This document shows, piece after piece, positions 10,803-40,012 of a stretch of DNA of 64,000 nucleotides. The translations under genes and the position numbers were made by a program. Source of the stretch: Desulfuromonadales bacterium (GTDB lineage: Bacteria > Desulfobacterota > Desulfuromonadia > Geobacterales > Pseudopelobacteraceae); assembly GCA_016650295.1 (NCBI GenBank), contig JAENWA010000032.1, positions 1 to 64,000 of the forward strand. The letters are read 5' to 3'. The notes under the pieces are model-generated. The model worked only from the letters and a program-made list of their open reading frames with translations, made no database searches and was not told where the DNA came from. The stretch's first letter is position 1. Each line of letters begins with the position of its first letter.

Positions 10803-11729
10803 TCAGCGAATATCGTAATTAAAGGTCACCGGACGTCCGTCCCGGATCATATCCAGTTTAAGCCTGTTCTGTCCTTTGAGGGCGATGAATGATTGCAGCG
10901 CCTTGTCCGGTGAGTCTATCGGAAAGTCGTTCAGACGCAGCAGCACATCGCCGTTTTTAATTCCAATCATGGCAAATACGCCGGAGGGTTTGACCTCTGA
11001 TGCCCGAAAGCCTTCCACCTTGCCGTCTTTCTGGCTGGGAAGCAGGCGGGCATCGCTCATGGCCTGGCCGATATTGTCAAGCGCTGCATTCAGGGCCCGC
11101 TGGTCGATGACGTAACTGCCCGCGCCCGTACTTGTGATACCCGAACCGGGCTGCACGGGAGCCGGCGTTGCCTGACCGGCGGCAGCCGCCGGCGACATGG
11201 GGGTCAGAAGCTCGACTTTTTTCCCGTTTACCACAATAAAGGCCTGATCCCGGGTCACCTGGACCAGCTTTCCGGCGTCAAAGACCATGTCACCCAGACG
11301 AAAGACGCGTTCCTCCTGTTTGGCCGAATGGCGCACCAGGGCAAAGGTTTCACGGAATGATCCCGTGACCGTTCCCAAAAGGAGCAGTTCGGCCGGCGCC
11401 GTGACCGGGGCAGCGGCCTGTGCGGCGGCTCCGCTATTCACGATCGGCGAGAGTTGGCCCTGGGTGGATTTACCGAACAGGCCGTTGGTGAGTATCGGTG
11501 CATAGTAGGAGAGATCGGCTGTTTTCGTGGCGCCGGCCGCTGGAGCCGCAGCGCTCTTGCCTCCCTTTGGAAGCAACGGAACGGAAAGGTTGCGGGAAAG
11601 GCTGTTGGCGACGATGGTGGCCAGAAGCACAACAACGACAATCCCCATGAGGATATTTATGATGGTAACCGTACGTGACATAGACCCTTGCGGTATGCAT
11701 CTCTTCAATATTTCCGACAGAGTGCTCAT
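10803..11729 (-). CDS. gspC: Type II secretion protein GspC
   Basis: This 308-residue protein has one N-terminal membrane helix (INILMGIVVVVLLATIVANS), a proline/alanine-rich linker, and the HR domain (FRLGDMVFDAGKLVQVTRDQ). A C-terminal PDZ domain reads GVFAMIGIKNGDVLLRLND and ends RDGRPVTFNYDIR. GspC bridges the inner-membrane platform and the secretin. It is the first gene of the gspC-D-E-F run. No clear terminator separates it from the nuclease gene upstream; the 178-base gap (11730-11907) shows no gene. Confidence 0.9.
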   Translation of the reverse strand: MSTLSEILKRCIPQGSMSRTVTIINILMGIVVVVLLATIVANSLSRNLSVPLLPKGGKSAAAPAAGATKTADLSYYAPILTNGLFGKSTQGQLSPIVNSGAAAQAAAPVTAPAELLLLGTVTGSFRETFALVRHSAKQEERVFRLGDMVFDAGKLVQVTRDQAFIVVNGKKVELLTPMSPAAAAGQATPAPVQPGSGITSTGAGSYVIDQRALNAALDNIGQAMSDARLLPSQKDGKVEGFRASEVKPSGVFAMIGIKNGDVLLRLNDFPIDSPDKALQSFIALKGQNRLKLDMIRDGRPVTFNYDIR

Positions 11730-11907
11730 GATTTCCGGCCGCTACCATACCAAATAAGCGCCGGTGCAACAAGTACTTTCCGGTATGGGCAGCTCTCTGA
11801 AAGCTGAATCCGGTTTCAGGTGACCGGCGGATAGTAATTCCAAGTTATCTGCTGCAATCGGGAAGCGGGACGATTCACCGTTTCAATCAAGACAGTTAAA
11901 GGTGTCT

Positions 11908-12438
11908 TTATCTGTGCCGCTTTCCATGCCGATTGCCCCCCTTGAGCGCCTGACGGAACTCCCAGGGCGGCAGCGGATTTGAATCGCGCCACAGTCCGGC
12001 CCGCCGGGCACGGGCCCGGGTTTCGGCCCCGATGTACTCGGAGGCATAGGGTCCCCGCAGATAGTGCCGGTAGGCCCAAGCCATCCCTTCCACCACCATC
12101 TCGCGGTTGATATCCCGGCCGGCGCAGCGAACCACCGCAACGACCCGCTGGTACGGGTCGATATCGATGATCTCGGCTGAAACCCTGCGACCCATGACCT
12201 TGCCGGTCAGCGCCCGTTTGGCATCTTCGCCGAAGGGTTGTCCCGGCTTGTCCGGCTTGGCGGTTTCCGGGGCATCGATACCATACAGCCGCACTTTGAG
12301 GCGACTCTCCTCGGGAGTATTCAGGAGGATCGTGTCACCATCGTAGACCGCCCGAACTACCCCTTCTATGCTGCGGGCCGCACAGCAGTCAGCCGTTATC
12401 AGCAGGATCATGATGCAGATGAGCGACAGCAGTCGCAT
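11908..12438 (-). CDS. Thermonuclease-like secreted nuclease (SNase fold)
   Basis: This 176-residue protein has an N-terminal signal peptide ending near ITADCCAA; a Cys there could also suit lipidation. The SNase OB fold follows: VVRAVYDGDTILL, KVRLYGIDAPET, a Lys/Arg-rich helix (GEDAKRALTGKVMGR) and DPYQRVVAVVRCAGRDINREMV. The catalytic positions, an Asp in DGDT and an Arg in VRLYGIDAPE, are present. It probably degrades extracellular or periplasmic nucleic acid. The start codon overlaps the stop of the U32 gene upstream by one base (TGATG), so the two are coupled. Confidence 0.87.
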   Translation of the reverse strand: MRLLSLICIMILLITADCCAARSIEGVVRAVYDGDTILLNTPEESRLKVRLYGIDAPETAKPDKPGQPFGEDAKRALTGKVMGRRVSAEIIDIDPYQRVVAVVRCAGRDINREMVVEGMAWAYRHYLRGPYASEYIGAETRARARRAGLWRDSNPLPPWEFRQALKGGNRHGKRHR

Positions 12439-14810: not shown

Positions 14811-14904
14811 TTCTGCTCACAATTAATTGAAAAGTTAAGGATTACTTTAGCTGCCGTCCCGGTCAAAAGCAAGGTTTTCGCAGCCTGCGGCAGGCACCAC
14901 AAAA

Positions 14905-14943
14905 ACAACGGCATCCGGAGCAGTTGGCCCCGGATGCCGTTGT
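14905..14943 (-). terminator. Rho-independent terminator of leuA
   Basis: A perfect stem of 14 base pairs (ACAACGGCATCCGG at 14905-14918, complement at 14930-14943) is followed on the minus strand by a T-run. It lies 30 bases past the leuA stop. Confidence 0.85.
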
Positions 14944-14972
14944 GCAGATGCTTGATGGTTGCTGAGTGGGGA

Positions 14973-16532
14973 CTACACGCTCGCGTTCAAGCGTTTCTGC
15001 TTGAAGTTAAGGCGGTTAAGCGCATGAATGTAAGCCTTGGCCGACGCTTCGATGATGTCGGTGGAGGCGCCTTTGCCGACCACGTTATGATCACCTTCGC
15101 TTACCCGCACGGTGACCTCACCCTGGGCGTCGGTGCCGCCGGTGATGGAGCCGACGTTATACTGCAGCAGCTTGGCCTTGGACTTGGTCAGCTTCTTGAT
15201 CGCCTTGAGGGTGGCGTCTACCGGGCCGTCGCCCAGCTCCGCGGTGCGGACCGCGATGCCGTTGATCTCCATCTGCACGGTGGCGGTTGCCACGGCAAAC
15301 GAACCGCAGGTAACGGTGATGTGATCAAGCTTGTAGCGGTCCTCGACCCTGGATTCTTCGGCGGCAATCGCCTCCAGATCCTCGTCGAAAACCTCTTTCT
15401 TCAGATCGGCCAGGGTCTTGAACCGTTCAAAGGCGTGATTCAGCTTCTCGTCGTCCAGTTCGAAGCCGAGCTCGATCAGGCGCTTGCTGAAGGCATGCCG
15501 GCCGGAGTGTTTGCCGAGCACCAGAGCGTTGGTGGAAAGTCCGACCGATTCGGGGGTCATGATCTCGTAGGTGGTTTTCTCCATCAGCATGCCGTGTTGA
15601 TGGATGCCGGCCTCGTGGGCAAAGGCGTTGGCTCCTACCACGGCCTTGTTGGGCTGGACACCGATGCCGGTGACGGTGGTCAGAAGGCGGCTGGCCGGGG
15701 TCAACAGTTCGGTGGCCACATTGCAGGCAAAGGGGAGGATGTCCTTGCGGGTGCGCAGGATCATGACGAATTCTTCCAGCGAACAGTTTCCGGCGCGCTC
15801 GCCGATGCCGTTTATGGTGCATTCCACCTGACGGGCGCCGGCCTGGATGGCGGCGATGGAGTTGGCCACGGACAGCCCCAGGTCATTGTGACAGTGGACC
15901 GAGATGATGGCCTTTTCGATGTTGGGAACATTCAGTTTCAGATACCGGATGATGTCGTAATATTCGGATGGGATGGTGTAGCCGACCGTATCCGGGATGT
16001 TGACCGTGGTGGCGCCGGCATCGATTACCGCTTCAACCACTTCGGCCAGAAACTCGCGGCGGGTGCGGACGGCATCCTCGCAGGAAAATTCGACATTGGG
16101 CGTATAACCGGCGGCCCGTTTGACCGCCTTGACCGCCGATGCCAGCACCTTGGCCGGTTCCATCTGCAGCTTGTATTTCATATGGATGTCGGAGGTGGCG
16201 ATGAAGGTGTGGATGCGCCCTTTCTCCCCGGCGTACTTCAGCGCTTCCCAGGCCCGGTCGATGTCTTTTTCGCTGGAGCGGCACAGGCCGGCGATCTCCG
16301 GTCCCTTGATGAGCTGGGCAATCTTTTTGACCGCTTCGAAATCTCCGTCGGAAGCGATCGGGAAACCGGCCTCGATTACATCCACGTTCATTTTCTGAAG
16401 GTGACGGGCCAGACGCAGTTTTTCCTCGATGTTCATGCTGTTGCCGGGGGCCTGCTCGCCGTCCCGCAGGGTGGTATCGAAGATCCTGATGATCTGCTTG
16501 TCGTCCTTTTTCTGTGCCGGTGCCTTAGCCAT
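14973..16532 (-). CDS. leuA: 2-isopropylmalate synthase
   Basis: This 519-residue enzyme makes 2-isopropylmalate from 2-ketoisovalerate and acetyl-CoA, the first committed step of leucine synthesis. Seen: IRIFDTTLRDGEQAPG near the N-terminus, the metal-binding HCHNDLG at about residue 213, GIGERAGNCSLEE, and NKAVVGANAFAHEAGIHQHG. The C-terminal LeuA dimer (leucine feedback) domain ends EASAKAYIHALNRL. AAAGGAG precedes the ATG. It is a single-gene unit with its own promoter, T-box leader and terminator. Citramalate or homocitrate synthase are alternatives; the leucine specifier upstream supports LeuA. Confidence 0.93.
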   Translation of the reverse strand: MAKAPAQKKDDKQIIRIFDTTLRDGEQAPGNSMNIEEKLRLARHLQKMNVDVIEAGFPIASDGDFEAVKKIAQLIKGPEIAGLCRSSEKDIDRAWEALKYAGEKGRIHTFIATSDIHMKYKLQMEPAKVLASAVKAVKRAAGYTPNVEFSCEDAVRTRREFLAEVVEAVIDAGATTVNIPDTVGYTIPSEYYDIIRYLKLNVPNIEKAIISVHCHNDLGLSVANSIAAIQAGARQVECTINGIGERAGNCSLEEFVMILRTRKDILPFACNVATELLTPASRLLTTVTGIGVQPNKAVVGANAFAHEAGIHQHGMLMEKTTYEIMTPESVGLSTNALVLGKHSGRHAFSKRLIELGFELDDEKLNHAFERFKTLADLKKEVFDEDLEAIAAEESRVEDRYKLDHITVTCGSFAVATATVQMEINGIAVRTAELGDGPVDATLKAIKKLTKSKAKLLQYNVGSITGGTDAQGEVTVRVSEGDHNVVGKGASTDIIEASAKAYIHALNRLNFKQKRLNASV

Positions 16533-27025: not shown

Positions 27026-28405
27026 TTATCCGTCGCTGCGGTCGCTGCGGTTCTCGAAACGGGTATGTTCACCGATAAAGGTCAGTTCGATGGTGCCCAG
27101 GGCGCCGTTGCGCTGCTTGCCGATGATGATCTCGGCGTTGCGCTCATGCCCCTTGCTGCAAGTAGTATCCGGCTTGCGACAATCCTCGCAGTAGACGGTT
27201 TCGCGGTAGACAAACATGATCACGTCGGCATCCTGCTCGATGGCTCCCGACTCGCGCAGGTCGCTCATCATCGGGCGTTTATCGGCGCGTTTTTCCAGTT
27301 CGCGGTTGAGCTGTGACAGCGCCACCACCGGCACCTCCAGCTCCTTGGCCAGCGCCTTGAGCGATCGTGAGATCTCGGAAATCTCCTGCTGGCGGGATTC
27401 GGGATTGTTGCTGCCCTTCATCAATTGCAGGTAGTCGACGATGACCAGGCCGATATCGTGCTCGCTCTTCAAGCGGCGCGCCTTGGAGCGCAGCTCCAGC
27501 ACGCTGATGGAGGGCGAGTCATCGATGAAGATCTTGGCGTTGTGAATAATACCGGCTGCCTGGGCCAGGCGCGGCCAGTCCGAATCATGGAAATGGCCGG
27601 TACGCATCCGGCCGAAGTCGACCCGGGCGATGGAGGCCAGAAAGCGCATCACCAGTTCTTCCTTGCCCATTTCCAGGGAGAAGATCACCGTGGGGCTTTT
27701 CTTTTTGTTATGCGGATTGGCGCTGGCATACTCAGCGATGTTAAGTGCCAGGGTGGTCTTGCCCATGGAAGGCCGGGCAGCGATGATGATCAGGTTGCCG
27801 GGCTGAAAACCGGCTGTTTTGTGATCCAGGTCCACATAACCGGTCGGCACGCCGGTGACATGCTCCTTCTGATCGTACAGGCTCTTGAGGATATTCATGG
27901 CGTCTTTGAGGACCGCCTGCACCGGTACATACTGGGGTCGCGATTTGTTTTCGGAGATCTCGTAGATCTCCTTCTGGGCCTTGTCCAGCAGTTCTTCCAC
28001 ATCGGCCTGTTCATCGTAGCCGCGACTGACGATCTCGGTCGCCACGCTGATCAGTTTTCGATTGGTGGACTTTTCCTTGACCATCTTGCAGTAGTAGGCG
28101 ATGTTGGCCGCCGTGGGGACATAATCCACCAGGGTCGCCAGATAGGCCGCCCCGCCGATCTCTTCCAGCTCTCCGGCCTTTTTGAGCATATCGGTCATGG
28201 TGATAAAATCGCACGGTTCGCGCAGGTCGGACAGCTTCATCATGGACTGGAAGATCTTGCGGTGACTCTCGCGGTAGAAATCCTCCGGCGTGAGCATCTC
28301 CAGCACCCGGTTGATGGCGTCGTTGTCGATCAGGATGCCCCCCAGGATGGACATCTCTGCCTCCAGGCTCTGGGGGGGAAGTTTTCTAAGGTCTGTGTCG
28401 CTCAT
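27026..28405 (-). CDS. dnaB: Replicative DNA helicase DnaB
   Basis: This 459-residue helicase unwinds DNA at the replication fork. The N-terminal domain (PPQSLEAEMSILGGILIDND) is followed by a RecA-like core with Walker A ARPSMGKTTLALNIAEYA at about residue 212. The core continues PTVIFSLEMGKEELVMR, GLVIVDYLQLM, and an arginine-finger region ending KQRNGALGTIELTF. There is no sign of an intein. It is the first gene of a minus-strand run with the pilus-type and molybdopterin genes, so dnaB transcription may feed those genes. Confidence 0.95.
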   Translation of the reverse strand: MSDTDLRKLPPQSLEAEMSILGGILIDNDAINRVLEMLTPEDFYRESHRKIFQSMMKLSDLREPCDFITMTDMLKKAGELEEIGGAAYLATLVDYVPTAANIAYYCKMVKEKSTNRKLISVATEIVSRGYDEQADVEELLDKAQKEIYEISENKSRPQYVPVQAVLKDAMNILKSLYDQKEHVTGVPTGYVDLDHKTAGFQPGNLIIIAARPSMGKTTLALNIAEYASANPHNKKKSPTVIFSLEMGKEELVMRFLASIARVDFGRMRTGHFHDSDWPRLAQAAGIIHNAKIFIDDSPSISVLELRSKARRLKSEHDIGLVIVDYLQLMKGSNNPESRQQEISEISRSLKALAKELEVPVVALSQLNRELEKRADKRPMMSDLRESGAIEQDADVIMFVYRETVYCEDCRKPDTTCSKGHERNAEIIIGKQRNGALGTIELTFIGEHTRFENRSDRSDG

Positions 28406-28452
28406 ATTCGTACGTATTTTCCTCTTGTAAGTTTAATATCCGATGAATTCTG

Positions 28453-28881
28453 TTAGCTGCCGACAAGCTCCATAAAATCGCCCACGGTAATGATCCTGGT
28501 CTGTTTGTAGTTCTTCAGGACCAGCAAATTCTGGTCGCCGGTAATTAGAAATTGAGCGCCACCACTGTCAGCTACCGCAAGAAACATGTCATCGAGAGGA
28601 TCGCGACAGATCCCGGTTACCTGCTCGATAATCTCCACCGGTTCCACAAAGGGGAGGATTTCTTCATTCAAGATAGCGCGAATCTCCCGCAAAGAAAGTT
28701 TGAATTTCGGATACGACAGGACTTTTCTGAATTCAGCGAATGTCTCCTTGGATACCAGCGGGATAATGCGGCCGGTCTTCCACAAGTCACGCAGCATTCC
28801 AACCCGGCCACTGAAGAGAAGAGCCGAGATTAGGACGTTGGTATCGAGGACAATCCGCAGGGGTGCTATCTTCTGGCCCAT
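28453..28881 (-). CDS. PIN-domain toxin (COG1569-type)
   Basis: This 142-residue protein opens RIVLDTNVLISALLFSGR with the first PIN Asp. SKETFAEFRKVLSYPKF supplies the Glu, and CRDPLDDMFLAVADSGGAQF with LITGD gives the later Asp residues, so the active site looks complete. This group is usually paired with an AbrB- or RHH-type antitoxin. Here the AbrB-like gene lies upstream, overlapping by 16 bases. It probably cleaves RNA; the target is unknown. Confidence 0.87.
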   Translation of the reverse strand: MGQKIAPLRIVLDTNVLISALLFSGRVGMLRDLWKTGRIIPLVSKETFAEFRKVLSYPKFKLSLREIRAILNEEILPFVEPVEIIEQVTGICRDPLDDMFLAVADSGGAQFLITGDQNLLVLKNYKQTRIITVGDFMELVGS

Positions 28882-29096
28882 TTAACCGCCTCGGTCACAT
28901 CATTCTCGTCAATACCGAGCTTCCGGATTTTTTCACGGATGCCTTCCAGGGAGGCATTCAGTGGTGTCACCTTCACCGGGGTCAGTACGATGCGGTTATC
29001 TTCCACCACGGCATCAAACAGGTCGATACCGGGAAAGTTGCCGACGATTTCCTTGGGCAAGGTCAGCTGATTTTTCGATGTTTTTTTGGCAAGCAT
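28866..29096 (-). CDS. AbrB/MazE-like antitoxin
   Basis: This 76-residue protein begins KKTSKNQLTLPKEIVGNF, the swapped-hairpin AbrB DNA-binding pattern, and continues DAVVEDNRIVLTPVKV. The C-terminal helix (GIDENDVTEAVKWARR) is the likely toxin-binding part. AAGGAGG precedes the ATG. A possible promoter (TTGTCC, 17 bases, TATTCT) lies about 20-50 bases upstream. It heads the pair with the PIN toxin. Confidence 0.82.
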   Translation of the reverse strand: MLAKKTSKNQLTLPKEIVGNFPGIDLFDAVVEDNRIVLTPVKVTPLNASLEGIREKIRKLGIDENDVTEAVKWARR

Positions 29097-29174
29097 TATT
29101 CCTTACCTCCTTACTATAAGAATAGTCGAGTTTATTGGCGCGGACAACCAGAATTTAGCAGTGTCTAAATTTAC

Positions 29175-30338
29175 TTATCTCCGATGGCGGTGGATAACCT
29201 CTTTCACCGCCTCTACCACATCCGCAGCATCTTCATCGGTCATTTTCGGAAACAGCGGCAGGGAAAGGATGCGTTCCGAGGCATAGCTGGCGTTGGGCAG
29301 TTCAGAGTCGGCCACCGGCAGATGCTCGCGATACCAGGCGTGGTGGTGGATGGCCTTATAGTGCAGGCCGCTGCCGATGTTACTCTTCTTGAGCTCCTCC
29401 ATAAAGCTGTCACGGTCGATGGTCAGCTGTTCGATCCTGACCAGCGGGGTGTAGAGGTGCCAGGCGTGGCGCTGCTGGTAGGGGGCGTAGGCCGGCAGGG
29501 CCAGTTCCGCCATATCCGCCAGTTCCCGGTTGTAGAACTCGGCGATGTCGCGGCGGCGGTCGATGAATCCGTCCAGCCGGGGCAGCTGATGGATGCCGAT
29601 TGCGGCCTGGATATCCATCATGTTGTATTTGAAGCCGGGCAGCAGGATGTCGTAGTTGGGGGTGCCGCTGGCGGCAAAACGCTTCCAGGCCTCGCGGCTC
29701 ATGCCGTGGAACTTCATCAGGGAGATCTCTTCGGCCAGGTTTTCATCGGCGGTGCAGACCATGCCCCCCTCGCCGGTGGTGATGTTCTTGTTGGGGTGAA
29801 ACGAGAAGATCGAGATGGAATCCAGGGAGCCGATCCGTTTGCCCTTGTATTCCGTACCGACGGCGTGGGCGGCATCCTCGATGATCGTCAGACCGTGCTC
29901 TTTCGCCAGGGCAAAGAGCGGGTCCATGTCACAAGCCTGTCCGGCGAAATGCACCGGGATGATGGCGCGAGTGGCGGGCGTAATCTTTTCGCGGACTTTG
30001 GCCGCGTCGATGTTGAGGGTGCCTGGCTCGATATCGGCCAGCACCGGCGTCCCACCGCACAGGATGATCATGCTGACCGTGGAGGCAAAGGTCATGGGGG
30101 TGGTGATGATCTCGTCCCCCTCCTTGATTTTCAGTGCCAGCAGGGTCAGGTGCAGACCGGCGGTGGCCGAGGTCAGCGGCACGGCATAGGGTGCGCCCAC
30201 ATAGGCCTTGAAGGCCTCCTCGAAGCGCTTGACCTTGGGGCCGGTGGTGATCCAGCCGGATTTGAGCGAATCGACGACCTCGTTGATCTCGGCGTCTTCG
30301 ATGGTCGGGGTGGAAAAGGGGAGGAAGGTTGTACGCAT
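29175..30338 (-). CDS. DegT/DnrJ/EryC1-family aminotransferase
   Basis: This 387-residue PLP enzyme of the sugar aminotransferase family transfers an amino group to a nucleotide-keto-sugar. Seen: GWITTGPKVKRFEEAFKAYV, TSATAGLHLTLLALKI, TTPMTFASTVSMI, the PLP Asp region IIEDAAHAVGTEYKG, and the lysine in FSFHPNKNITTGEGGMV. The start at 30338 (MRTTFLPFSTPTI) is the family start; an upstream reading is unsupported. It is not next to other sugar genes here, although a lipid-A-type GT39 transferase lies at 36855. The product sugar cannot be named. Confidence 0.88.
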   Translation of the reverse strand: MRTTFLPFSTPTIEDAEINEVVDSLKSGWITTGPKVKRFEEAFKAYVGAPYAVPLTSATAGLHLTLLALKIKEGDEIITTPMTFASTVSMIILCGGTPVLADIEPGTLNIDAAKVREKITPATRAIIPVHFAGQACDMDPLFALAKEHGLTIIEDAAHAVGTEYKGKRIGSLDSISIFSFHPNKNITTGEGGMVCTADENLAEEISLMKFHGMSREAWKRFAASGTPNYDILLPGFKYNMMDIQAAIGIHQLPRLDGFIDRRRDIAEFYNRELADMAELALPAYAPYQQRHAWHLYTPLVRIEQLTIDRDSFMEELKKSNIGSGLHYKAIHHHAWYREHLPVADSELPNASYASERILSLPLFPKMTDEDAADVVEAVKEVIHRHRR

Positions 30339-30463
30339 GGTGTTGGGTGCTCCTTGAGAAGTTGTTCGATAACCTAGCATGGAAGTAGAAGACAAGAAAG
30401 CAGCAACAAGCTATTCACCTGCTTTGCCCATTATTGGTGCCTTTGCAATCTTAGCGCTCGTTG

Positions 30464-33400
30464 TTAATATTCACTTTCAAACTGCTTGTGGACCCAAAGA
30501 AACTCTTTACGCTTGTTCTGTACTCGGACAAGCCCACCAAAGCTAGCGTCCTTCTCCTTCAATAACGCGTGTAGTTGCCTCAAAGTGGCTCCTTTTGCCT
30601 GAATTACCTCGCCTTGTTCTAAATCAGGCGCATCGTTATGTCCGAGCCACGCCCCTGATTTTTCTCCTCCCTTTAGAACGGAATCGATGCTTTTCTGGCC
30701 AAAGTCCAACTCTTTTTCAATGCCTTTGTATGTAACATTGTCGAGTGCAAGTTTGGTTGCTGAAGCAGCCACAGGTAGCACGAGACTGAGTGTTCCAGTG
30801 AGCACCTTGAAGAAAGGAGCAGCTTTGACAAACCAATCTCGTGGAAGATCCAGCTCATAGACACCACAACAATCATCTTTTCCATTTAATGCCGGGAGCG
30901 GCAAACGGGAATGTTCGCACCATAGTGTCAGACGAAATTTCTGGTTTACCCACTTTGGCCGATCAAGAAATCTGGGATCGACTGGCTGGAAACTAAACAG
31001 CCGCGGTCCGTCTTTGGCCTCATCGATTAAAATTTGGATCATATTTGTAAAAGCATCTTCAACTTGACTCATAATACGCCGGTCGTTTTGGTCAAGCTGA
31101 TGATAGTGCTCCTGTTCACTCTTAATGTGCTGGTATGAAAGTTCACGAATCGTGTCCAGTCTGGAACGCATCTCGTCGAACCCTTTAGAAAACAACACTT
31201 CAATTGACGTGCGCTGTGCGGATGGCGCATTGCGAAGAAGGCAATCAATATTTTGCCATTCATCACATACAGGGCATGGATAGTCTGGTTTATTTCGTTT
31301 TTTACTTTCTATGAGTTTCTGCACTTCAAACAAGCCTATACCAGGAACACCTTTACCGCATGGCACTACGCATGGCACCATCACCTTGCACCGTAGGCCC
31401 GACCAAAAGCTCTCAACAAGCCACTTCACTTCATTCGTTAGTACAGACAGAAATCGCTCAGGATATGGAGCACGTACGGTGATACGTACATCGTTTCCAA
31501 TATATTCCAATAAAGCACGTCCATTGTAGTCATCATCAAGCACAAGCCCGCGTTGCCAATGCACACTTTCCATGAAATTCAAGCGACCAAGCGAATACTT
31601 GTGTAAGCGCACAATCAATAGATAAAAAAGCCCTTCTGCAGTTGCCGATTGACCGCTTCCCGCATCTACTATCTGGCAAATTTGTACCTGCTGTCCATCT
31701 CCTTCATCTGCACTGTCAGTCCATCCAGGGATCTGTGCAGGGCGGGTATCGGGAACCAGTTGTGCGATCAGGCTGGCTCCTTCATTTCCATCATCAGAAA
31801 GTCCTACTACACGATAGGATAAGTCGAAGCGTTCCATCAATCGCAAGAAAACAAAATGTACATCCGCTGGATATCGGTATAGATCTATCTTGCTCGGATC
31901 GTTCCACAACAAACGTAGGCTGGAAAAACTGACCAAACCATGAGTGTCACGGGTTTGCTTGTCGTCAAGGACTAAACTGATTGCCGTGGCTAGCCAATCC
32001 GGTTTAAGGATTACAATATCCCGTAAAAATGGATCGTGCTCGTAATGGATCAAATGACCCAGGCGATGAGAAATACGCACAAGGTCTAGTGCTTCCACCT
32101 CATCCATCTTGTTCTCGCCAAATATTTCAATAACACGTTCAAACGAAAGATAAGCCACCCCTGTTTGCTGTAGAGCTTCGCGCGCACGCTGCCACCGAGC
32201 CGGCACAGAACGCCCCATATCGGGCAGACTTGCTGCAACTCTAGTGATCGCTTCTTTTAGTTCTGAAATGCCTTCACGCTCACCGGTAATGTCATCCGGT
32301 TTGCTATCCACATGGAAGAAGTCTAGTACTGTCTCATGACCAAACAGGTCGTAAATCTCCTGCCGGTCAATGTCCGGCTGTCGCTGTCCTGGTTCACCAT
32401 GAGTGGCTACGACCAGAATCTTGGCATCCGGCTCACGATGTTTAACCAGCTTGATCCAATCTTTGACAAAACCTTGGGTTGGCCCTTCACGCGGTTTCCA
32501 AACAACCAGATAGACTGCCGGAGCGCTGAAGAACAACTGGTGTGTTGGGCGGTATACTCGCTGGCCACCAAAGTCCCATCCATTAAGTGTGATATCAATT
32601 CCATTTTCTGGATTCCTAACAGAAACGGGTTTTATTTCGATACCATGCGTAGATTCGCGTTCCACCCATGGATCTCCTCGTAACGCGCCGAGTAGACAGC
32701 TTTTCCCAACCTCACCCTCACCAACCAAAATGAGCTTTGCTTCGTTCAAAACTACTTGCTCTTCCGCTTGCGCGCGCAGGTATCGCATGACAGCGTCAAG
32801 CCCTTCTTCATATGCCGCTGCTAATTCAGGATGTAGTGGATTCCCTCCAAGTTGAAGTTTTTCAAGTTGGTGGAGTTGAGCCAAACTTGATGGCATCATT
32901 GTTAACATGTTACCAGCGTCTTCAGCATATGAGGCATTCCACGATATCTCAATTCCACCCAAAACAAGAATTTGCAGCCGATTAAGTTTTGAAATAGAGT
33001 CGGGGAGATTTTCGATTTGGTTATTGAGCGCATAGAGTTCAACTAAATTTACGAGGTTACAGATACATTTTGGAAACTCCGTAAATTCATTTGAAGATAT
33101 GGAGATACGCCTCAAGTTAGTAAGCAGAGTTAGAGATTCCGGTAGCTCCTTCAGTTTATTGATCCAAAGCTCCAAATCTACTAACTGCTTGAGCTGGCCA
33201 ACACCATTTGGAATCTTTGTCAGATTGTTAAAAGAGAGGTTCAGTGTTTGTAACTGTATTAGCTGTCCTATGCTCTCAGGAAGTTTTACCAGTTCATTAT
33301 GGGAGATATTCAACGATTGCAACTGCTTTAGCTGGCCCAAACTCTTTGGCAGCTTCTTCAGATTGTTTTGGGAAAGATTCAATATTTGTAATTGCTTAAG

Positions 33401-33883
33401 ATGTCTAAACCAATCAGGTAACTCTGTTAATTCATTAGAGCTGAGGTCCAACAATTGTAACTGATTTAATCGCCACATACTATTTGGTAACTTTGTTAAC
33501 TCGATACTGTGGAGGTGAAGCGATTGCAATTGTGTAAACTGTCCCATCCACTCTGGTAACTCTTTCAATTCGTTTTCGGAGAGACTCAGCGATTGCAACT
33601 GTGTAAACTGCCCCAACCACTCCGGCAATTCAGTCAGTACGTTGTCGGAGAGATCCAACGATTGCAACTGTGTAAGTTGCCCCAACCACTCCGGTAACTC
33701 AGTAAATTCGTTAGAACTGAGGTTCAGTGCCGTTAGCTGGGTAAGCAGACTCAAAAATTTCGGTAGTTCTGCGACATTTGCTAAGTCGTCCATTTGAAAG
33801 CTTAGATCAAGTTCTGTAGCTCCAGTTTTTAGTGCATCTTCAATCATTTCTTTTGCTGTTTTATCCGCCACACCATGTGCCAT
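30464..33883 (-). CDS. Bacterial Roco protein: LRR - Roc GTPase - COR
   Basis: This protein of about 1139 residues has some 13-14 leucine-rich repeats of 23 residues (about 20-350; unit such as LQSLDLSDNVLTELPEWLGQ). A Roc GTPase follows, with P-loop GEGEVGKS (about 388-395), switch WDFGGQ (about 436-441) and THGE at the NKxD position. Then comes a COR domain (about 560-800). The C-terminal third carries a possible zinc pair (CPVC...C near 905) and a hydrophobic stretch VLTGTLSLVLPVAASATKLA. Roco proteins include eukaryotic LRRK2; bacterial roles are mostly unknown. ATG at 33883 has GAGGTG upstream. Base composition is AT-richer than the flanks, suggesting transfer. Confidence 0.87.
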   Translation of the reverse strand: MAHGVADKTAKEMIEDALKTGATELDLSFQMDDLANVAELPKFLSLLTQLTALNLSSNEFTELPEWLGQLTQLQSLDLSDNVLTELPEWLGQFTQLQSLSLSENELKELPEWMGQFTQLQSLHLHSIELTKLPNSMWRLNQLQLLDLSSNELTELPDWFRHLKQLQILNLSQNNLKKLPKSLGQLKQLQSLNISHNELVKLPESIGQLIQLQTLNLSFNNLTKIPNGVGQLKQLVDLELWINKLKELPESLTLLTNLRRISISSNEFTEFPKCICNLVNLVELYALNNQIENLPDSISKLNRLQILVLGGIEISWNASYAEDAGNMLTMMPSSLAQLHQLEKLQLGGNPLHPELAAAYEEGLDAVMRYLRAQAEEQVVLNEAKLILVGEGEVGKSCLLGALRGDPWVERESTHGIEIKPVSVRNPENGIDITLNGWDFGGQRVYRPTHQLFFSAPAVYLVVWKPREGPTQGFVKDWIKLVKHREPDAKILVVATHGEPGQRQPDIDRQEIYDLFGHETVLDFFHVDSKPDDITGEREGISELKEAITRVAASLPDMGRSVPARWQRAREALQQTGVAYLSFERVIEIFGENKMDEVEALDLVRISHRLGHLIHYEHDPFLRDIVILKPDWLATAISLVLDDKQTRDTHGLVSFSSLRLLWNDPSKIDLYRYPADVHFVFLRLMERFDLSYRVVGLSDDGNEGASLIAQLVPDTRPAQIPGWTDSADEGDGQQVQICQIVDAGSGQSATAEGLFYLLIVRLHKYSLGRLNFMESVHWQRGLVLDDDYNGRALLEYIGNDVRITVRAPYPERFLSVLTNEVKWLVESFWSGLRCKVMVPCVVPCGKGVPGIGLFEVQKLIESKKRNKPDYPCPVCDEWQNIDCLLRNAPSAQRTSIEVLFSKGFDEMRSRLDTIRELSYQHIKSEQEHYHQLDQNDRRIMSQVEDAFTNMIQILIDEAKDGPRLFSFQPVDPRFLDRPKWVNQKFRLTLWCEHSRLPLPALNGKDDCCGVYELDLPRDWFVKAAPFFKVLTGTLSLVLPVAASATKLALDNVTYKGIEKELDFGQKSIDSVLKGGEKSGAWLGHNDAPDLEQGEVIQAKGATLRQLHALLKEKDASFGGLVRVQNKRKEFLWVHKQFESEY
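33521..33697. repeat. Tandem 69-base LRR-coding repeats
   Basis: Near-identical DNA units recur every 69 bases inside the Roco gene. GATTGCAACTGTGTAA starts at 33591 and again at 33660, with a diverged copy at 33522; each is followed by CCCCAACCACTCCGG or a close variant. DNA-level identity implies recent expansion or homogenisation of repeat units, not just conserved protein. Confidence 0.75.
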
Positions 33884-34060
33884 AGTCACCACCTCAAGAA
33901 TATATGTGAGACAAGTTTGAATTTATGTAACTCATAAAGACACACTCACGCCGCCAACTCTCCCACCCCAAACGAATCCGCCTGCCTCAACTCAACTCCC
34001 CGCTCAAACCCAGGCAAAAGCTCTGCGATAAAAAATATTAGTGAACTTCAGCATAACACA

Positions 34061-34172
34061 GGAGCGTGGGCATCCTGCCTGCGTTTCAAGCGGACGTTTC
34101 GCTTGAATTGACTGCAAACAAATGTATTCGGGCATAACCCCGCCCGAAACACAGGCAGGATGCCTATGCTCC
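34061..34172. repeat. REP-like nested inverted repeat
   Basis: The outer arms GGAGCGTGGGCATCCTGCCT (34061) and CAGGCAGGATGCCTATGCTC (34152-34171) are complementary with two mismatches. Inside lies a smaller hairpin, TTCAAGCG/CGCTTGAA (about 34085-34106). The sequence type resembles dispersed REP elements. The rest of 33893-34213 holds no gene. Confidence 0.65.
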
Positions 34173-34213
34173 GGAAGAACCAAGCTATCATATCTCGGTA
34201 CAAAACAAATTAT

Positions 34214-34247
34214 GTTACTTGACTTACCAAACTAACCAAGGTAACTT
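34214..34247 (+). promoter_or_regulatory. Promoter and operator of the RHH/methyltransferase unit
   Basis: TTGACT (34219-34224) and TAACTT (34242-34247) are 17 bases apart. The expected transcription start falls at or next to the ATG at 34255, and there is no Shine-Dalgarno, so the transcript looks leaderless. GTTACTTG (34214) and CAAGGTAAC (34238) form an imperfect palindrome covering both boxes. Confidence 0.5.
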
Positions 34248-34254
34248 TACTAAC

Positions 34255-34467
34255 ATGACAACAACACAAGAAGCAAAACGAAAAAAAACGTTTCCCATTG
34301 AGATTGAGGAAGACCTTCACAAGGCCCTCAAATTCAAGGCGATTGAATCGGATATGACGCTCCATGCCTATATTATCGAGGCGCTCAATTCTCGGGTTCG
34401 TGAGGATTCTGCTGCCTATGCTGGCAAGGGTAACGCACAAACTTCAAGCACGGGAGACAAACCATGA
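34255..34467 (+). CDS. Small ribbon-helix-helix (Arc-type) protein, possible controller
   Basis: This 70-residue protein is basic at the N-terminus and has an RHH-like core: TFPIEIEEDLHKALKFKAIE followed by SDMTLHAYIIEALNSRV. Arc/CopG-type dimers bind palindromic DNA through the beta strand. The ATG overlaps promoter spacing for a leaderless start, and the stop overlaps the methyltransferase ATG by four bases (ATGA). By position it could act as the controller of the restriction-modification system, in place of the usual HTH C protein; this is inference. A start further upstream at 34219 has no support. Confidence 0.65.
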   Translation: MTTTQEAKRKKTFPIEIEEDLHKALKFKAIESDMTLHAYIIEALNSRVREDSAAYAGKGNAQTSSTGDKP

Positions 34468-35417
34468 TCGCCGCCAGTCACCTGGACATTGGCCGGGTCG
34501 CGCATGAAAACCAGGCGGATGATGCTCCTGTGCGGATCATCCATGGTGATGTTCGTCAAGAGCTGGCCAACCTTGCCGATGAGACGTTTCACTGCTGCGT
34601 AACATCTCCGCCGTACTGGGGAATGCGTGATTACGGCTATGAGGGGCAGATCGGCGCGGAAAGCCGCATTCAGGACTATATCGAACATCTGGTCGCCGTG
34701 TTTCGTGAGGTACGCCGGGTGCTGCGCAGTGACGGTACACTCTGGCTCAATATCGGCAACACCTACACATCCGGCGGCAGAACATGGCGACAGTCCGACT
34801 CCAAAAATGCGGGACGCGCCATGTCGTATCGCCCCGATACACCGGAAGGACTCAAACCCAAAGACCTGATCGGTGTGGCCTGGATGCTGGCCATGGCCCT
34901 GCAACTTGACGGTTGGTATCTCCGTTCCGACATCATCTGGCACAAACCTAACTGCCAACCAGAATCCGTCAAGGACCGCGTAACAGTGTCTCACGAATAC
35001 CTGTTCATGCTTTCAAAGAGCGAGTCCTATTACTTTGATCAGGATGCCATCAAGGAACCGACTGCTGACGGCAAAACCCGCAAAAACAAACGGAGCATCT
35101 GGAGCATCAATACTGAACCCTGCAAGGAAGCTCACTTTGCGGTTTTCCCACGGGCCTTGGTGCAACCTTGTCTGCTCTCTGGTTCGCCGCATGACGGGCT
35201 GGTACTTGATCCGTTTTTCGGCAGCGGCACGGTTGGTGTGGTCGCGGTTGAAACCGGGCGGCGGTGTGTCGGGATAGAGCTGAAGGCCGACTATGTCGAG
35301 ATAGCGCGGCAGAGACTGCGCAATGCGCTACCGCCGCTCATGCCGGAACTTGCTGCTGCGGCTCCTCGAAGCGCCACGTCGCGTGAACGATACACGACGC
35401 CTTCATTAGGCCTTTGA
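34464..35417 (+). CDS. DNA methyltransferase, probably N4-cytosine (SmaI-type)
   Basis: This 317-residue protein has the catalytic motif TSPPYW (about residues 47-52) before the AdoMet motif DPFFGSGTVGVVAVETG (about 248), the beta-class order. SPPY is typical of N4-cytosine enzymes. IELKADYVEIARQRL closes the core. The gene converges on a restriction endonuclease resembling SmaI, so the likely target is CCCGGG; that target rests on the endonuclease similarity. Its last 80 bases overlap the 3' end of the endonuclease gene on the other strand. Confidence 0.85.
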   Translation: MIAASHLDIGRVAHENQADDAPVRIIHGDVRQELANLADETFHCCVTSPPYWGMRDYGYEGQIGAESRIQDYIEHLVAVFREVRRVLRSDGTLWLNIGNTYTSGGRTWRQSDSKNAGRAMSYRPDTPEGLKPKDLIGVAWMLAMALQLDGWYLRSDIIWHKPNCQPESVKDRVTVSHEYLFMLSKSESYYFDQDAIKEPTADGKTRKNKRSIWSINTEPCKEAHFAVFPRALVQPCLLSGSPHDGLVLDPFFGSGTVGVVAVETGRRCVGIELKADYVEIARQRLRNALPPLMPELAAAAPRSATSRERYTTPSLGL

Positions 35418-36114
35418 TCTGTAACTTTCTTTCACCACCCCCGTCAAAATATAGGCTGAAAAGGGCCTGCCCGTTTTCCTCCACGTAGCAGTATCCCGGC
35501 TTGGGGTACTGCCTGCTTTCCATCCGCATTTCAAAACGGCCATCCTTGGCCATTTCCAGAATGTTTTTCGGGATTTCCACAAGTTCATAGAGATAGTCAG
35601 GTGAACCCTTGCGGAGCGCCCGCAACACCAGAATACGGTTGATTCCCGCCAGGTTGTCAAGAAACTGCTGTCGCAGCCCGATCAAGTCGTCAAGATTATC
35701 ACCCCAATGACCGCCACCCAACTCCATGAATTTCGAGATATGAAGGGTTGAGAGGCGAATCCCCTTGGCCGCCTCGGTTTTCAGGGAAAATTTCTGTCCT
35801 GCAATGGACAGGTCATGACCACGTGTTCCCCGTGGCGCCAAAAGAGCCGCACAACCCGATGTCATCAATACCATTTCCAGCGCAAACTCAAACTTGTCCT
35901 TGGAAAAGGGCTCACGGGAAAAGCTGTGATGCAGGCGCAATACATCACCAAAATCCAGCAGCGAACCGTATGAAATGATGTCTGAATCAGGCGCCCGGTA
36001 TATCTCCCACGGTTGCAAGAACACCGATACCACACGATCAATCAGCTCAAGACGATAGTCACTCAGGTCGGGAATAGCAGCTAACAGCCTTTGAATACGT
36101 ACCTTACGATTCAT
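35338..36114 (-). CDS. Type II restriction endonuclease, SmaI-like
   Basis: This 258-residue protein matches my memory of the SmaI sequence in several blocks. These are GHDLSIAGQKFSLKTEAAKG (SmaI: GHDITI...LKTEAAKN), a KFMELGGGHW-type segment, and LVEIPKNILEMAK. The end LYFDGGGERKLQIKGL and CIVHATW is also shared. D101 with K112/E114 would form the PD-(D/E)XK-type site. It probably cuts CCCGGG. It is encoded convergently with its methyltransferase, with an 80-base overlap. No alignment was computed, so the specificity should be taken as likely, not proven. Confidence 0.8.
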   Translation of the reverse strand: MNRKVRIQRLLAAIPDLSDYRLELIDRVVSVFLQPWEIYRAPDSDIISYGSLLDFGDVLRLHHSFSREPFSKDKFEFALEMVLMTSGCAALLAPRGTRGHDLSIAGQKFSLKTEAAKGIRLSTLHISKFMELGGGHWGDNLDDLIGLRQQFLDNLAGINRILVLRALRKGSPDYLYELVEIPKNILEMAKDGRFEMRMESRQYPKPGYCYVEENGQALFSLYFDGGGERKLQIKGLMKASCIVHATWRFEEPQQQVPA

Positions 36115-36194
36115 TTGTCCACCTAATGATTGGGTTCATGCAAAAAAAATATCAACGATTCAGTCCAACAGGCAACGCCAACCGTTACTCCAAT

Positions 36195-36803
36195 CTACCC
36201 CACCCGATACCGTCCCGGACCTTCCTTCACCATATTCAACTCCGCCGGATCACGCTCGAATATTTCCCACAAAAGGAGCGTAATTCCGGGCAACGCCACC
36301 AGCGGCAGTTCCTCGTTCCAGGCGAAGATCTCGGCCCGCCCATACGCTCCTTCCACAAGGGCATAGCGTTCAACCAGATCGTTTTGCGGATCGACAAGCA
36401 GGTATTCCGGCACTCCGAAGCGTTCGTACAGTTGCAGCTTCAGGCGTTTGTCCATCAGGGGATTGGAAGGTGAAAGCACCTCGATGACAAGATCGGGGGC
36501 TCCCTGGATATTGGCTTCGAAAATCCTGCTTTTATTGCAGACTACCAGCACATCGGGCTGAACGATGTTGTAGTCGTCAAATACCACATCCGTCGGTGCA
36601 ATGAACGGGGTACAGGGTTTTCCCTTGAGCTGTTCGCGAATGGTGGAATAGAGGTTGCCGGTAAGCTTCTGGTGTTTGATGTTGGGGGCGGCGGTCATGT
36701 TATAGGCCTGACCGTTAATGATCTGCCAGCGCTCCGTCTCCGGCCAGTCCCGGTAGTCGTTCAATGAAAAACGGTGCGGTTCATTTTCTGACGGGAATGC
36801 CAT
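36195..36803 (-). CDS. Uma2 family (DUF820) endonuclease-fold protein
   Basis: This 202-residue protein has the Uma2 pattern: WQIINGQAYNMTAAPNIKHQ, FIAPTDVVFDDYNIVQPDVLVV, and then APDLVIEVLSPSNPLMDKRLKLQLY with GVPEYLLVDPQNDLVERY. The D...EVxS...K arrangement is a PD-(D/E)XK-like core. Uma2 proteins are abundant in cyanobacteria and their role is unclear. The start at 36803 (MAFPSENEPHRF) is chosen because GGAGG lies upstream with normal spacing. Confidence 0.83.
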   Translation of the reverse strand: MAFPSENEPHRFSLNDYRDWPETERWQIINGQAYNMTAAPNIKHQKLTGNLYSTIREQLKGKPCTPFIAPTDVVFDDYNIVQPDVLVVCNKSRIFEANIQGAPDLVIEVLSPSNPLMDKRLKLQLYERFGVPEYLLVDPQNDLVERYALVEGAYGRAEIFAWNEELPLVALPGITLLLWEIFERDPAELNMVKEGPGRYRVG

Positions 36804-36854
36804 ACTTGATCCTCCGTTGGAATTGATACGCAAAAAAACTGTTCAAGGTACCTG

Positions 36855-38582
36855 TTACCGGTTACTGATCAGCACTCTCCGTCCCGCTTCGCCCTTGACA
36901 ACCGGCCGAGGGTCCAGCAATGGCCGCAGGCCATTCAGTTCCCCTTTATTAAGGAACACCAGGACGTGCTTCTCGCTGCCCCATAGCGCCAGCAAGGCTT
37001 GCTGATCGGGAAACCAGGCCGTTTGGTCGCCCTGCCTGCTTCCAAACTCAAGTTCATCGATCTTGCCGGTCACCAGTACCCTGCGGCCGGTGTACCATGA
37101 GACCGCTTGCATCGGGCCATAGGTGACGATCGCTGTGTCCGGGCCGGCCAGTGCAGCGGCCTTCAGGGCCAGTTCGCGGGGAGACTCGGCGCGGGTGATC
37201 TCGCCCATGATCAGCCGCGGTACCAGGATTTCAAGCAGAAACGAACCGATACATAGTACCACGAACATCCGCATCGGATTTTTGCCGGTGCTATTCAAGG
37301 TTCCAAGCCCCTGGAACAGGAACAGTCCCCCCAACGTGACGACGGCCGCAACCGAAAAAGCCGGGGCGTGGCTGACAAACTGCGCCAGGGGGGCTGACCA
37401 GCCGGGGACACGGCTGCTCAGCAGAGCAGCTGCCTGGGGCAGCCGGGCATAGGCCAGGGCTGCCGCACCCAGTACCAGCAGAGCCAGACCGAGCAGCATG
37501 GCCGCCCCCTTCAGCTCCCTGCTGCGACCGGCCGAGAGCAGGTCGATGCGCTGGCCGATCAGCATGGCCAGGGGCGGGAAGATCGGCAGGATGTAGGGGA
37601 TCAGCTTGGAGCCTGATTTCGAGAAGAACAGGAATATGACGGCAATCCAGATCAGCAGGTACAGGCCGGCCCGCCCTTCCTCGTGGTTCCGGTCGCGCCA
37701 GGCCCTGACCAGTGCGCCGGGGATGAAGAACGACCAGGGCAGCATGGTGCCCAGCAACACCGGGACAAAGAACCAGAAGGGCTGGTTGCGGCCATGCACC
37801 GTGCTGGTGAAACGCTCGAAGTGCTCGTGGATGAAGAAGAAACGGGCAAACTCGGGGTTCTTCAGCGAGACCGCCACAAACCAGGGCGCCGCCACGGCCA
37901 GGAACAACAGCAGTCCGCTTGCCAGGCGCATCTCGGATAGCAGCCGCCAGCGCCGACTGAGCAGAAGATAGAAAAAGATGATGCCGGCCGGAAAGACCAT
38001 ACCGATCAGCCCCTTGGCCAATACGGCCAGGGCACTGAAGACGTAGAACAGGTACCAGGGCAGGGCTTTGGAACGGCGACCTTCGCGGCAGGTGGCTACT
38101 ATAAAGGAGCCCAGAGCAGCGGTCAGACAGAAGGTCAGCAGCATGTCGGTCAGAATGATGCGCGACTGCAGCACGAAACCGGCCGAAGTCCCCAGGATCA
38201 GGGCCGAGAACAGCGCAGCGCGGCGGCTGTAAAGCTTGCGAGCGATGATATAGGTCGCCAGTACCGTCAGCAGACCGCACAGGGCCGAGGGGAAGCGGGC
38301 GGCGAACTCGTTCTGGCCGAACAGCTTGAGAGAGGCGGCATTGATCCAGTACAACAGCGGCGGCTTTTCAAAATACTTGACGTAATTGAGGGTAGGGGTG
38401 ATCAGATCGCCCCGTTCCAGCATCTCGCGGGGGATTTCGGCGTAGCGTCCCTCGTCCGGGTCCATCAACGGTAACCCGCCCAGATATTGGAAAAAAGGAA
38501 TGCCGAGGCAAACGGCCAGTATCAGCAGGTCACGCAGCCAGCCGCCGGACCCGTTGCTGACAATAGGCTTGAGGTCTCTCAT
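36855..38582 (-). CDS. ArnT-like GT39-family glycosyltransferase
   Basis: This 575-residue polytopic protein has about 12 hydrophobic helices. The first loop carries MDPDEGRYAEIPREMLERGD, with the Asp-Glu pair that GT39/GT83 enzymes use, followed by YVKYFEKPPLLYWINA. Such enzymes move a sugar from undecaprenyl phosphate to lipid A, proteins or glycans on the outer face of the inner membrane. Whether it adds aminoarabinose is unknown, as no other arn gene is present. It overlaps the upstream U32 gene by four bases (ATGA). Confidence 0.85.
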   Translation of the reverse strand: MRDLKPIVSNGSGGWLRDLLILAVCLGIPFFQYLGGLPLMDPDEGRYAEIPREMLERGDLITPTLNYVKYFEKPPLLYWINAASLKLFGQNEFAARFPSALCGLLTVLATYIIARKLYSRRAALFSALILGTSAGFVLQSRIILTDMLLTFCLTAALGSFIVATCREGRRSKALPWYLFYVFSALAVLAKGLIGMVFPAGIIFFYLLLSRRWRLLSEMRLASGLLLFLAVAAPWFVAVSLKNPEFARFFFIHEHFERFTSTVHGRNQPFWFFVPVLLGTMLPWSFFIPGALVRAWRDRNHEEGRAGLYLLIWIAVIFLFFSKSGSKLIPYILPIFPPLAMLIGQRIDLLSAGRSRELKGAAMLLGLALLVLGAAALAYARLPQAAALLSSRVPGWSAPLAQFVSHAPAFSVAAVVTLGGLFLFQGLGTLNSTGKNPMRMFVVLCIGSFLLEILVPRLIMGEITRAESPRELALKAAALAGPDTAIVTYGPMQAVSWYTGRRVLVTGKIDELEFGSRQGDQTAWFPDQQALLALWGSEKHVLVFLNKGELNGLRPLLDPRPVVKGEAGRRVLISNR

Positions 38583-39805
38583 GGGGAGGTCTTCTCCCGC
38601 CTGAGCAGATCGAGCGGCTCGACCTTGAAAGGGAGACTGAGCGCGATGGTCTGGTTGGGGTTGGCAACAGCGATTTCACTTTCTCCCGGCGACAGGAGCG
38701 TCATGCCGCCGATGGTAATGTGGTCTGCGCGCATGGCCGGCCCGATGACTTCCAGCCGGTCGCCGGCCGAGATACGGTTGCGGACCGCGATCAGCGCCCG
38801 TCCGTCCGGCAGCAGATCCTGCACCACACCGACAAATTCGTGGCTGCGGAGATAGGCCGAGTCGTACTCCTGCCCCACCGCCTGCGGTTCGCCGAACAGG
38901 AAGCCGGTGGTGTAGCCGCGGTGGCTCATCTTGGCCAGTTCCTCCATCCACTCCGGCCGGCAGCGCCACCCAAGCGGGTCGGCCAGATATTCGTCCAGGG
39001 CCTGGCGATAGACCCGCAGCACCGAGGCCACGTAGTTGATCCCCTTCATGCGCCCCTCGATCTTCAGGGAGGCCACGCCGCTTTGCACCAAGGCCGGGAT
39101 ATGCTCCAGCAGGCACAGGTCGCGGGAGTTGAAGATAAAGGTGCCGGTCTCATCCTCCACCACCGGGAAATACTCGCCGGGACGTTGTTCCTCCACCAGG
39201 TGATAGCTCCAGCGGCAGGGGTGGGTGCATTCGCCCTGGTTGGCGTCGCGACCGGTCAGCATGCTGGAGATCAGGCAGCGGCCCGAGTAGGAGATGCAGA
39301 GCGCGCCATGCACAAAGGCCTCAAATTGCATGCCGGGGACCGCTGTCACCGTCTCGCGGATATTCTCCAGGGTCATCTCGCGGGCCATATTGATGCGGCC
39401 GATACCCAGGCGCTGCCAGAAGCGGGCACTGTGCAGGTTAATGGTATTGGCCTGGGTGGAGAGGTGCAGTTCACGCTCGGGAGAGATGCCGCGGACCAGC
39501 TCGATCACCCCGGGGTCGGCCACGATGTAGGCGTCGAAGGGCAGCGGGGCCACGCTCTTCAGATACGCCTCCAGGGCGGCCATCATCTCGTTGCGCGGGT
39601 AGCTGTTGACCGTCAGGTAGGCCTTGACACCGCGGAGGTGGCAGAGATCCAGCGCCGCACCCATTTCCTCCAGGGAGAAGTTGTCGGCCTTGTTGCGCAG
39701 ACCGAAGGAGTGACCTCCCAGGTAGACCGCGTCGGCGCCGTAGTGCAGGGCAATTTTCAGTTTTTCCATGTTGCCGGCCGGGGCCAGCAGTTCGGGTTTG
39801 GTCAC
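38579..39805 (-). CDS. Peptidase U32 family protein (TrhP-like)
   Basis: This protein of about 408 residues starts TKPELLAPAGNMEKLKIALH, the U32 signature, with YGADAVYLGGHSFGLR. The four-cysteine region is HGALCISYSGRCLISS and then GECTHPCRWSYHL, a probable iron-sulfur site. Its length fits the TrhP/YegQ-type group that helps hydroxylate tRNA uridine, shorter than the U32-DUF3656 protein at 12438. A GTG at 39805 is chosen as start because it matches the family's usual beginning; no strong Shine-Dalgarno is visible. It is coupled to the GT39 gene. Confidence 0.85.
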   Translation of the reverse strand: MTKPELLAPAGNMEKLKIALHYGADAVYLGGHSFGLRNKADNFSLEEMGAALDLCHLRGVKAYLTVNSYPRNEMMAALEAYLKSVAPLPFDAYIVADPGVIELVRGISPERELHLSTQANTINLHSARFWQRLGIGRINMAREMTLENIRETVTAVPGMQFEAFVHGALCISYSGRCLISSMLTGRDANQGECTHPCRWSYHLVEEQRPGEYFPVVEDETGTFIFNSRDLCLLEHIPALVQSGVASLKIEGRMKGINYVASVLRVYRQALDEYLADPLGWRCRPEWMEELAKMSHRGYTTGFLFGEPQAVGQEYDSAYLRSHEFVGVVQDLLPDGRALIAVRNRISAGDRLEVIGPAMRADHITIGGMTLLSPGESEIAVANPNQTIALSLPFKVEPLDLLRREKTSP

Positions 39806-39953
39806 GGGGTTTCCGGTTAGAGTTATTGGATGGATCGGGGTGCAGAATGCTATCACATTATACAGGTCAATAAAACCGAAACCTGTTACACTGAATCCGG
39901 CCGGCAGGAAAAACATAATAGCGCTTGTAACCATGCAAAAACACAGCTTTCAC

Positions 39954-39982
39954 TTGACAAATAACAGGTTATCGCTTTAATT
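39954..39982 (+). promoter_or_regulatory. Promoter ahead of the CpoB/YbgF-like lipoprotein gene
   Basis: TTGACA (39954-39959) and TTAATT (39977-39982) are separated by 17 bases, about 30 bases before the ATG at 40013. This lies in the divergent gap between the U32 gene and the lipoprotein gene. Confidence 0.5.
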
Positions 39983-40012
39983 GTGGGAAACAGCTATCAC
40001 ATGGGGGGAATT

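Follow-up and report, generated by a model that had tools for sequence, protein, structure and literature searches.

A horizontally acquired bacterial LRR-Roc-COR protein with a conserved C-terminal domain outside the named Pfam and NCBIfam families

A stretch of 64,000 nucleotides from a Desulfuromonadales contig (JAENWA010000032.1, hereafter the window) carries a horizontally acquired single gene, recently inserted on its own beside a restriction system, whose product, judged from its sequence, is a bacterial relative of LRRK2: a protein of known kind that ends in a C-terminal domain (CTD) unnamed in Pfam and NCBIfam. LRRK2 is the Parkinson's-disease protein, and the bacterial Rocos are its simplest relatives. 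As a whole, the reading favored here stands at about even chances of being correct: one gene, gained by horizontal transfer, whose product belongs to the LRR-AP-GTPase(Roc)-COR family of conflict type and serves as an LRR-GTPase sensor switch.

Domain Architecture

The open reading frame occupies positions 30464–33883 on the minus strand (1139 aa), ending at 30464, with an ATG at 33883 preceded by a GAGGTGG ribosome-binding site, so that the boundaries given by the first-pass annotation proved to be exact; an alternative GTG start 9 bases upstream is possible but worse placed than the ATG. From the N- to the C-terminus, Pfam profiles matched in the order LRR_14 (2.7e-46), Roc (PF08477, 1.9e-19), COR-A (PF16095, 2.1e-29) and COR-B (PF25497, 1.3e-23), all four being significant and Roc being followed directly by COR. 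Together with the P-loop GEGEVGKS (aa 388) and the DFGGQ motif (aa 437), this upheld the earlier recognition of a Roco from the succession of LRR, P-loop, DFGGQ and COR. NCBIfam matches to secreted LRR proteins remained far under the cut-offs, were due to the LRRs alone and were rejected. The features of the protein, in window coordinates, are as follows:

30464–33883, minus strand: the whole Roco (LRR-Roc-COR protein of 1139 aa), starting from an ATG behind a GAGGTGG ribosome-binding site, Pfam
32834–33742, minus strand: leucine-rich repeats, about aa 48–350, presumed sensor; Pfam; repeat number highly variable among homologues
32399–32737, minus strand: Roc GTPase domain, about aa 383–495, with P-loop GEGEVGKS, DFGGQ and G4 = THGEP
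31757–32203, minus strand: COR-A, about aa 561–709, Pfam
31232–31636, minus strand: COR-B, about aa 750–884, Pfam
31265–31372, minus strand: zinc-ribbon-like Cys4 motif (C838, C842, C870, C873), overlapping the end of the COR-B match
31025–31204, minus strand: predicted long helix or coiled coil, about aa 894–953, low confidence, from structure prediction
30467–31009, minus strand: conserved C-terminal domain (CTD), aa 959–1139, without Pfam or NCBIfam family
30746–30841, minus strand: long hydrophobic helix of the CTD, aa 1015–1046, with the conserved Pro of 'LPVAAS'

The P-loop and DFGGQ are intact across the homologues. At G4, the window protein has THGEP and most of its clade THGGP, whereas the canonical guanine-specificity motif is [N/T][K/H]xD, with an Asp in the last position. 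Six of the 38 homologues have this Asp at its usual fourth place (THID, THTD, TQID), and the other 32 lack it there. Since membership in the Roco group rests on Roc-COR, the missing Asp weakens just the case for ordinary guanine specificity, which may be altered here; the Roc domain presumably uses GTP. Among solved structures, the best match to the full Roc-COR was the Chlorobaculum tepidum Roco (CtRoco, E 2e-20), outscored by a shorter bacterial Roc-COR fragment (4wnr) and followed by human LRRK2 over Roc-COR-A (E about 1e-15). The comparison with the Chlorobium Roco suggested by the first-pass annotation thus yielded clear Roc-COR homology together with a different G4 (NKID there, THGEP here).

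The C-Terminal Tail

The approximately 250 residues beyond COR represent a conserved tail of three parts: the Cys4 motif, the predicted coiled coil and an alpha/beta CTD of about 180 aa. Profile searches with the last approximately 250 residues recovered no Pfam or NCBIfam family, and a profile search of the sequences of solved structures gave no match to the CTD. Sequence matches to catenin, C-type lectin and the like (E >0.1), as well as a two-finger match at E 0.026, were treated as chance, while the CTD matches on viral contigs (L026–L028) turned out to be an unrelated 198-aa ORF. The first and third cysteines of the Cys4 motif (Cys838 and Cys870) were invariant in all 38 homologues and the fourth (Cys873) was present in 35 of them; by its pattern, the motif would be expected to bind zinc. 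Within the CTD, the homologue alignment revealed the conserved motifs GPRLF, LWCEH, LxLPVA, LHALLKEKD, GGLVRVQ and FLWVH, while more distant family members terminate in 'HWGGLKKVLTPEGHYLWLCEHHAAEY'.

When the whole tail was first modelled from 18 similar sequences, pLDDT reached 56 and the result was read for secondary structure only; the AlphaFold2 model of the CTD built from 31 diverse sequences reached pLDDT 74.6 and pTM 0.71. In it, beta strands are followed by three helices, the first two of them long, then by a beta hairpin and a short helix. The additional C-terminal domain claimed earlier is therefore real, the domain search and structure prediction having returned a conserved tail with its own predicted fold rather than disorder or a part of COR alone. 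Comparison of the model with PDB and viral fold libraries yielded no convincing match (best Foldseek E values 0.92 and 1.3, VIA Z at most 3.8), which is not proof of a new fold.

In almost all of the sequences tested, hydrophobicity along the CTD peaks at the same place, which is aa 1024–1042 in the window protein and lies within the first long helix, with Kyte-Doolittle 19-mer values of 1.34–1.93 across the family and 1.57 in the window CTD, just below the usual cut-off of 1.6 for a transmembrane helix. The first-pass annotation pointed out a Cys pair and a hydrophobic stretch; the cysteines (Cys838, Cys842, Cys870 and Cys873) and the stretch are present, and, since both sit in a conserved region, they are more than chance. 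The peak and the long uninterrupted helix of the model would suit a membrane-killing effector, in which GTP activation exposes a hydrophobic helix hairpin for insertion into the inner membrane and abortive infection. However, the segment, with its value under the cut-off, could equally pack inside the CTD, and fold and sequence searches found no match to a known pore-former, which makes such an effector unlikely; the membrane-active tail suggested earlier was not demonstrated, given the borderline hydrophobicity and the lack of a known fold match.

Each of the 38 distinct Roc-containing homologues has its CTD after Roc-COR, the zinc ribbon and the coiled coil. Because of this position, the CTD may be a structural extension of COR, serving dimerisation, autoinhibition or LRR docking, with the output delivered by an unknown partner. 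A long predicted coiled coil would suit dimerisation, and the corresponding tail of CtRoco is flexible (PMC11052575). Set against this, the CTD is predicted as a fold of its own, and two cyanobacterial loci encode it without Roc-COR; a purely structural role is possible but rather unlikely. At these two loci (L149:5823–6784 and L150:5057–6009), the CTD is fused to DUF6887 and encoded behind a DUF6888 gene; in L149 the fusion gene directly adjoins a Roco-CTD gene which is itself split by an inserted gene reading like a transposase, and a fragmented downstream gene at L149/L150 reads like a papain/C39-type peptidase. The DUF6888, DUF6887-CTD and peptidase-like genes possibly form a multi-gene conflict cluster.

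The Roc-less proteins give the best hint at the CTD as an adaptor or assembly module. Their arrangement resembles the logic described by Kaur et al. (2021; PMC8195603) for shared domains of which one copy is borne by the NTPase and others by partners. That the CTD is an unnamed assembly or effector domain of bacterial LRR-GTPase immune sensors, shared with a DUF6887-CTD partner which is recruited by CTD-CTD contact, is a distinctly doubtful proposal; if true, such recruitment would be a GTPase-based parallel to NLR-adaptor signalling.

Genomic Site and Insertion

The neighbors of the Roco gene encode a SmaI-type restriction endonuclease (4.8e-76), an N4/N6 DNA methylase (5.6e-53) and Uma2 (3.1e-33), all by Pfam, and the GC content is 45–47% at the locus versus 55–63% around it, in agreement with the restriction-modification (R-M) system and Uma2 gene in AT-richer DNA noted in the first reading. 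At a Roco-CTD locus elsewhere (L151), several tandem Uma2-like genes (11405–15728) adjoin the Roco, and Uma2 is also near the window Roco. A small 82-aa ORF (34219–34467) lies just upstream of the methylase start and overlaps it; its counterpart in a genome of the same genus (G458) has a weak HicB-family match below the cut-off, in view of which the ORF possibly encodes a ribbon-helix-helix regulator for this R-M system. No Rfam families were found in 28000–40000.

The flanking aminotransferase and U32-peptidase genes are about 1.75–1.95 kb apart, with one glycosyltransferase, in most relatives and 8.2 kb apart in the window. One relative (G025; L097 1249–4111) carries a Gp49/RelE-like gene and a HATPase-domain gene at the same chromosomal site, while other relatives have no insert there; the site is thus variable and is an insertion hot spot. 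In G458, the methylase and SmaI-type nuclease genes occupy this site too, with 90% identity to the window from 34206 to 36126, but the counterparts of window positions 30380 and 34206 are separated by no more than 24 bases, the Roco gene being missing. Two further features result from this part of the window:

30381–34205, no strand assigned: Roco-only insertion relative to G458, about 3.8 kb, replaced by 24 bp in G458
34061–34172, no strand assigned: foreign inverted-repeat element folding into a branched hairpin (-70.5 kcal/mol, z -9.5), upstream of the Roco gene within the insert

Since G458 has the R-M system and lacks the Roco, the piece, about 3.8 kb long, came in or dropped out on its own, apart from that system, and the reading of both as one acquired system was rejected. 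The R-M genes being a separate insertion, their adjacency is weak evidence for a joint function with the Roco. The hairpin has arms of the GGCATCCTGCCTG type, without a match elsewhere in this genome, and its arm pattern recurred in a single further genome among 336 from the phylum; confined to the insert and nearly missing from the phylum, it is a foreign mark. The repeat was absent from the other loci compared and from plasmids, and these searches pointed to no donor.

Homologues and Distribution

Scanning of 84,980 species genomes produced 19 loci, and one distant homologue was found in the own phylum of the host. The loci of readable length all encoded LRR-Roc-COR proteins with the same tail and belonged to Nostoc, Scytonema, Leptolyngbya, Oscillatoria, Anaerolineae, Planctomycetota, Calditrichota and a deltaproteobacterium. 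Only 1 of 141 genomes from the window's own order and 3 of 395 from its phylum carried the CTD. It occurred in 37 of 320 genomes of one cyanobacterial order (about 12%, broken copies counted), in 7 of 292 of the cyanobacterial phylum with a narrower profile, and in 5 of 201 Chloroflexota genomes; plasmid and phage searches gave no copies. In the tree, the window protein grouped with two Chloroflexota-derived proteins (support 100/99), and it is 65–68% identical to cyanobacterial and Chloroflexota proteins over Roc-COR-CTD, the tail being conserved together with Roc-COR as a single unit. Patchy distribution, tree placement and the insertion agree with an accessory, horizontally acquired location.

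While Roc-COR-CTD stays similar, complete homologues differ widely in the length of their N-terminal LRR tract, which ranges from about 190 to 750 aa; three Nostoc proteins close to each other in Roc-COR-CTD (L008, L009 and L012) have 493, 338 and 393 aa ahead of the P-loop. Such variation is expected of a recognition surface. In two Chloroflexota loci (L067 and L068), two different Roco subfamilies occupy one genomic slot, between genes that read like a GMC-type oxidoreductase and a 3-hydroxyacyl-CoA dehydrogenase, as if one receptor had been replaced by another.

Possible Link to Defence

PADLOC 2023 has no model for the Roco. Near a few homologues, a Septu system (L059), an AAA_21/DUF4276 pair with matches to HEC-01 models (L149), a PARIS-like AAA_21/DUF4435 pair (L151) and an AAA_15 ATPase (L160) were encountered, and control regions also matched defence-related models, such as those of PbeA/PbeC and TnsB/TnsC. 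The survey used crude-ORF gene calls and the top 25 families, and its second near-set took L149 proteins beyond the fixed distance, so that it falls short of a formal test; in its two paired sets, homologue neighborhoods were mostly housekeeping, with defence-gene counts in no clear excess over controls. The neighborhoods thus did not demonstrate the defence gene suggested earlier, and a role in anti-phage defence is no more than plausible. The second Roco of the same contig (G000:C32, about 86554–90045; L102:2554–6045), 54 kb away and outside the window, has the architecture TIR_2-WD40-Roc-DUF4365, with no Pfam match for a COR region in the scanned part; it adjoins a DUF5131 (Gp37/Gp68-type) gene and a gene reading like a three-Cys-motif partner protein.

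Prokaryotic AP-GTPase(Roc)-COR proteins with a fast-evolving LRR and at least 24 C-terminal domains, including TIR, DRHyd, caspase, trypsin, FGS, GT4 and EADs, have been proposed as counter-invader systems by Kaur et al. (2021; PMC8195603). The window Roco shows the combination described there: variable LRR, Roc-COR and a C-terminal domain in the effector position. The missing excess of defence genes and the housekeeping neighbors shared by the Roco genes of three Nostoc-type genomes (L056, L057 and L064) would fit a GTPase of routine signalling unconnected with defence, a niche-specific transferred gene with stable chromosomal contexts in Nostoc. But the patchy distribution, broken copies and LRR length variation, as well as the L067/L068 slot with its two subfamilies, look like conflict genes, and an ordinary signalling role is judged improbable.

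Proposed Mechanism

The Roco probably works as a GTP-driven sensor switch. In this reading, the fast-varying LRR would bind a cue inside the cell, a product of an invader being the likeliest candidate. The cue, together with GTP loading of Roc-COR, would drive a change from dimer to open monomer of the kind known for CtRoco, which is a dimer when nucleotide-free and an open monomer when GTP-bound (PMC11052575); by homology, a GTP-dependent dimer-monomer cycle may be expected of the window protein as well. Opening would free the zinc-ribbon/coiled-coil/CTD tail, and the CTD would act as the output module by assembly with itself or with a partner. Its hydrophobic helix might engage the membrane, assembly being favored over direct pore formation. 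Taken alone, the window protein adds a further example to a known family; the Roco-only insertion, with a genome of the same genus missing it, and the Roc-less CTD partner make the idea of a GTP-driven immune switch directly testable.

Comparison With Known Systems

Closest in architecture are the LRR-Roc-COR proteins of Nostoc, Scytonema, Leptolyngbya and Anaerolineae, which share the zinc ribbon and CTD at the identity given above, but differ in their LRR arrays and genomic context. The AP-GTPase(Roc)-COR conflict proteins, as described by Kaur et al. (2021), have in common with the window Roco the N-terminal variable LRR, the Roc-COR switch and a C-terminal domain in the effector position; the CTD is not among the domains listed above by name, but could be one of the others counted there. 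CtRoco (PDB 6hlu, 8r4b, 3dpu) shares the LRR-Roc-COR core but has a canonical G4, in contrast to the THGEP of the window protein; it was not matched by the CTD or tail profiles in the sequence-profile search against PDB, and its last 150 residues form the flexible tail that is not resolved (PMC11052575). Human LRRK2, finally, has a kinase and WD40, whereas the window Roco lacks both and carries the bacterial CTD instead.
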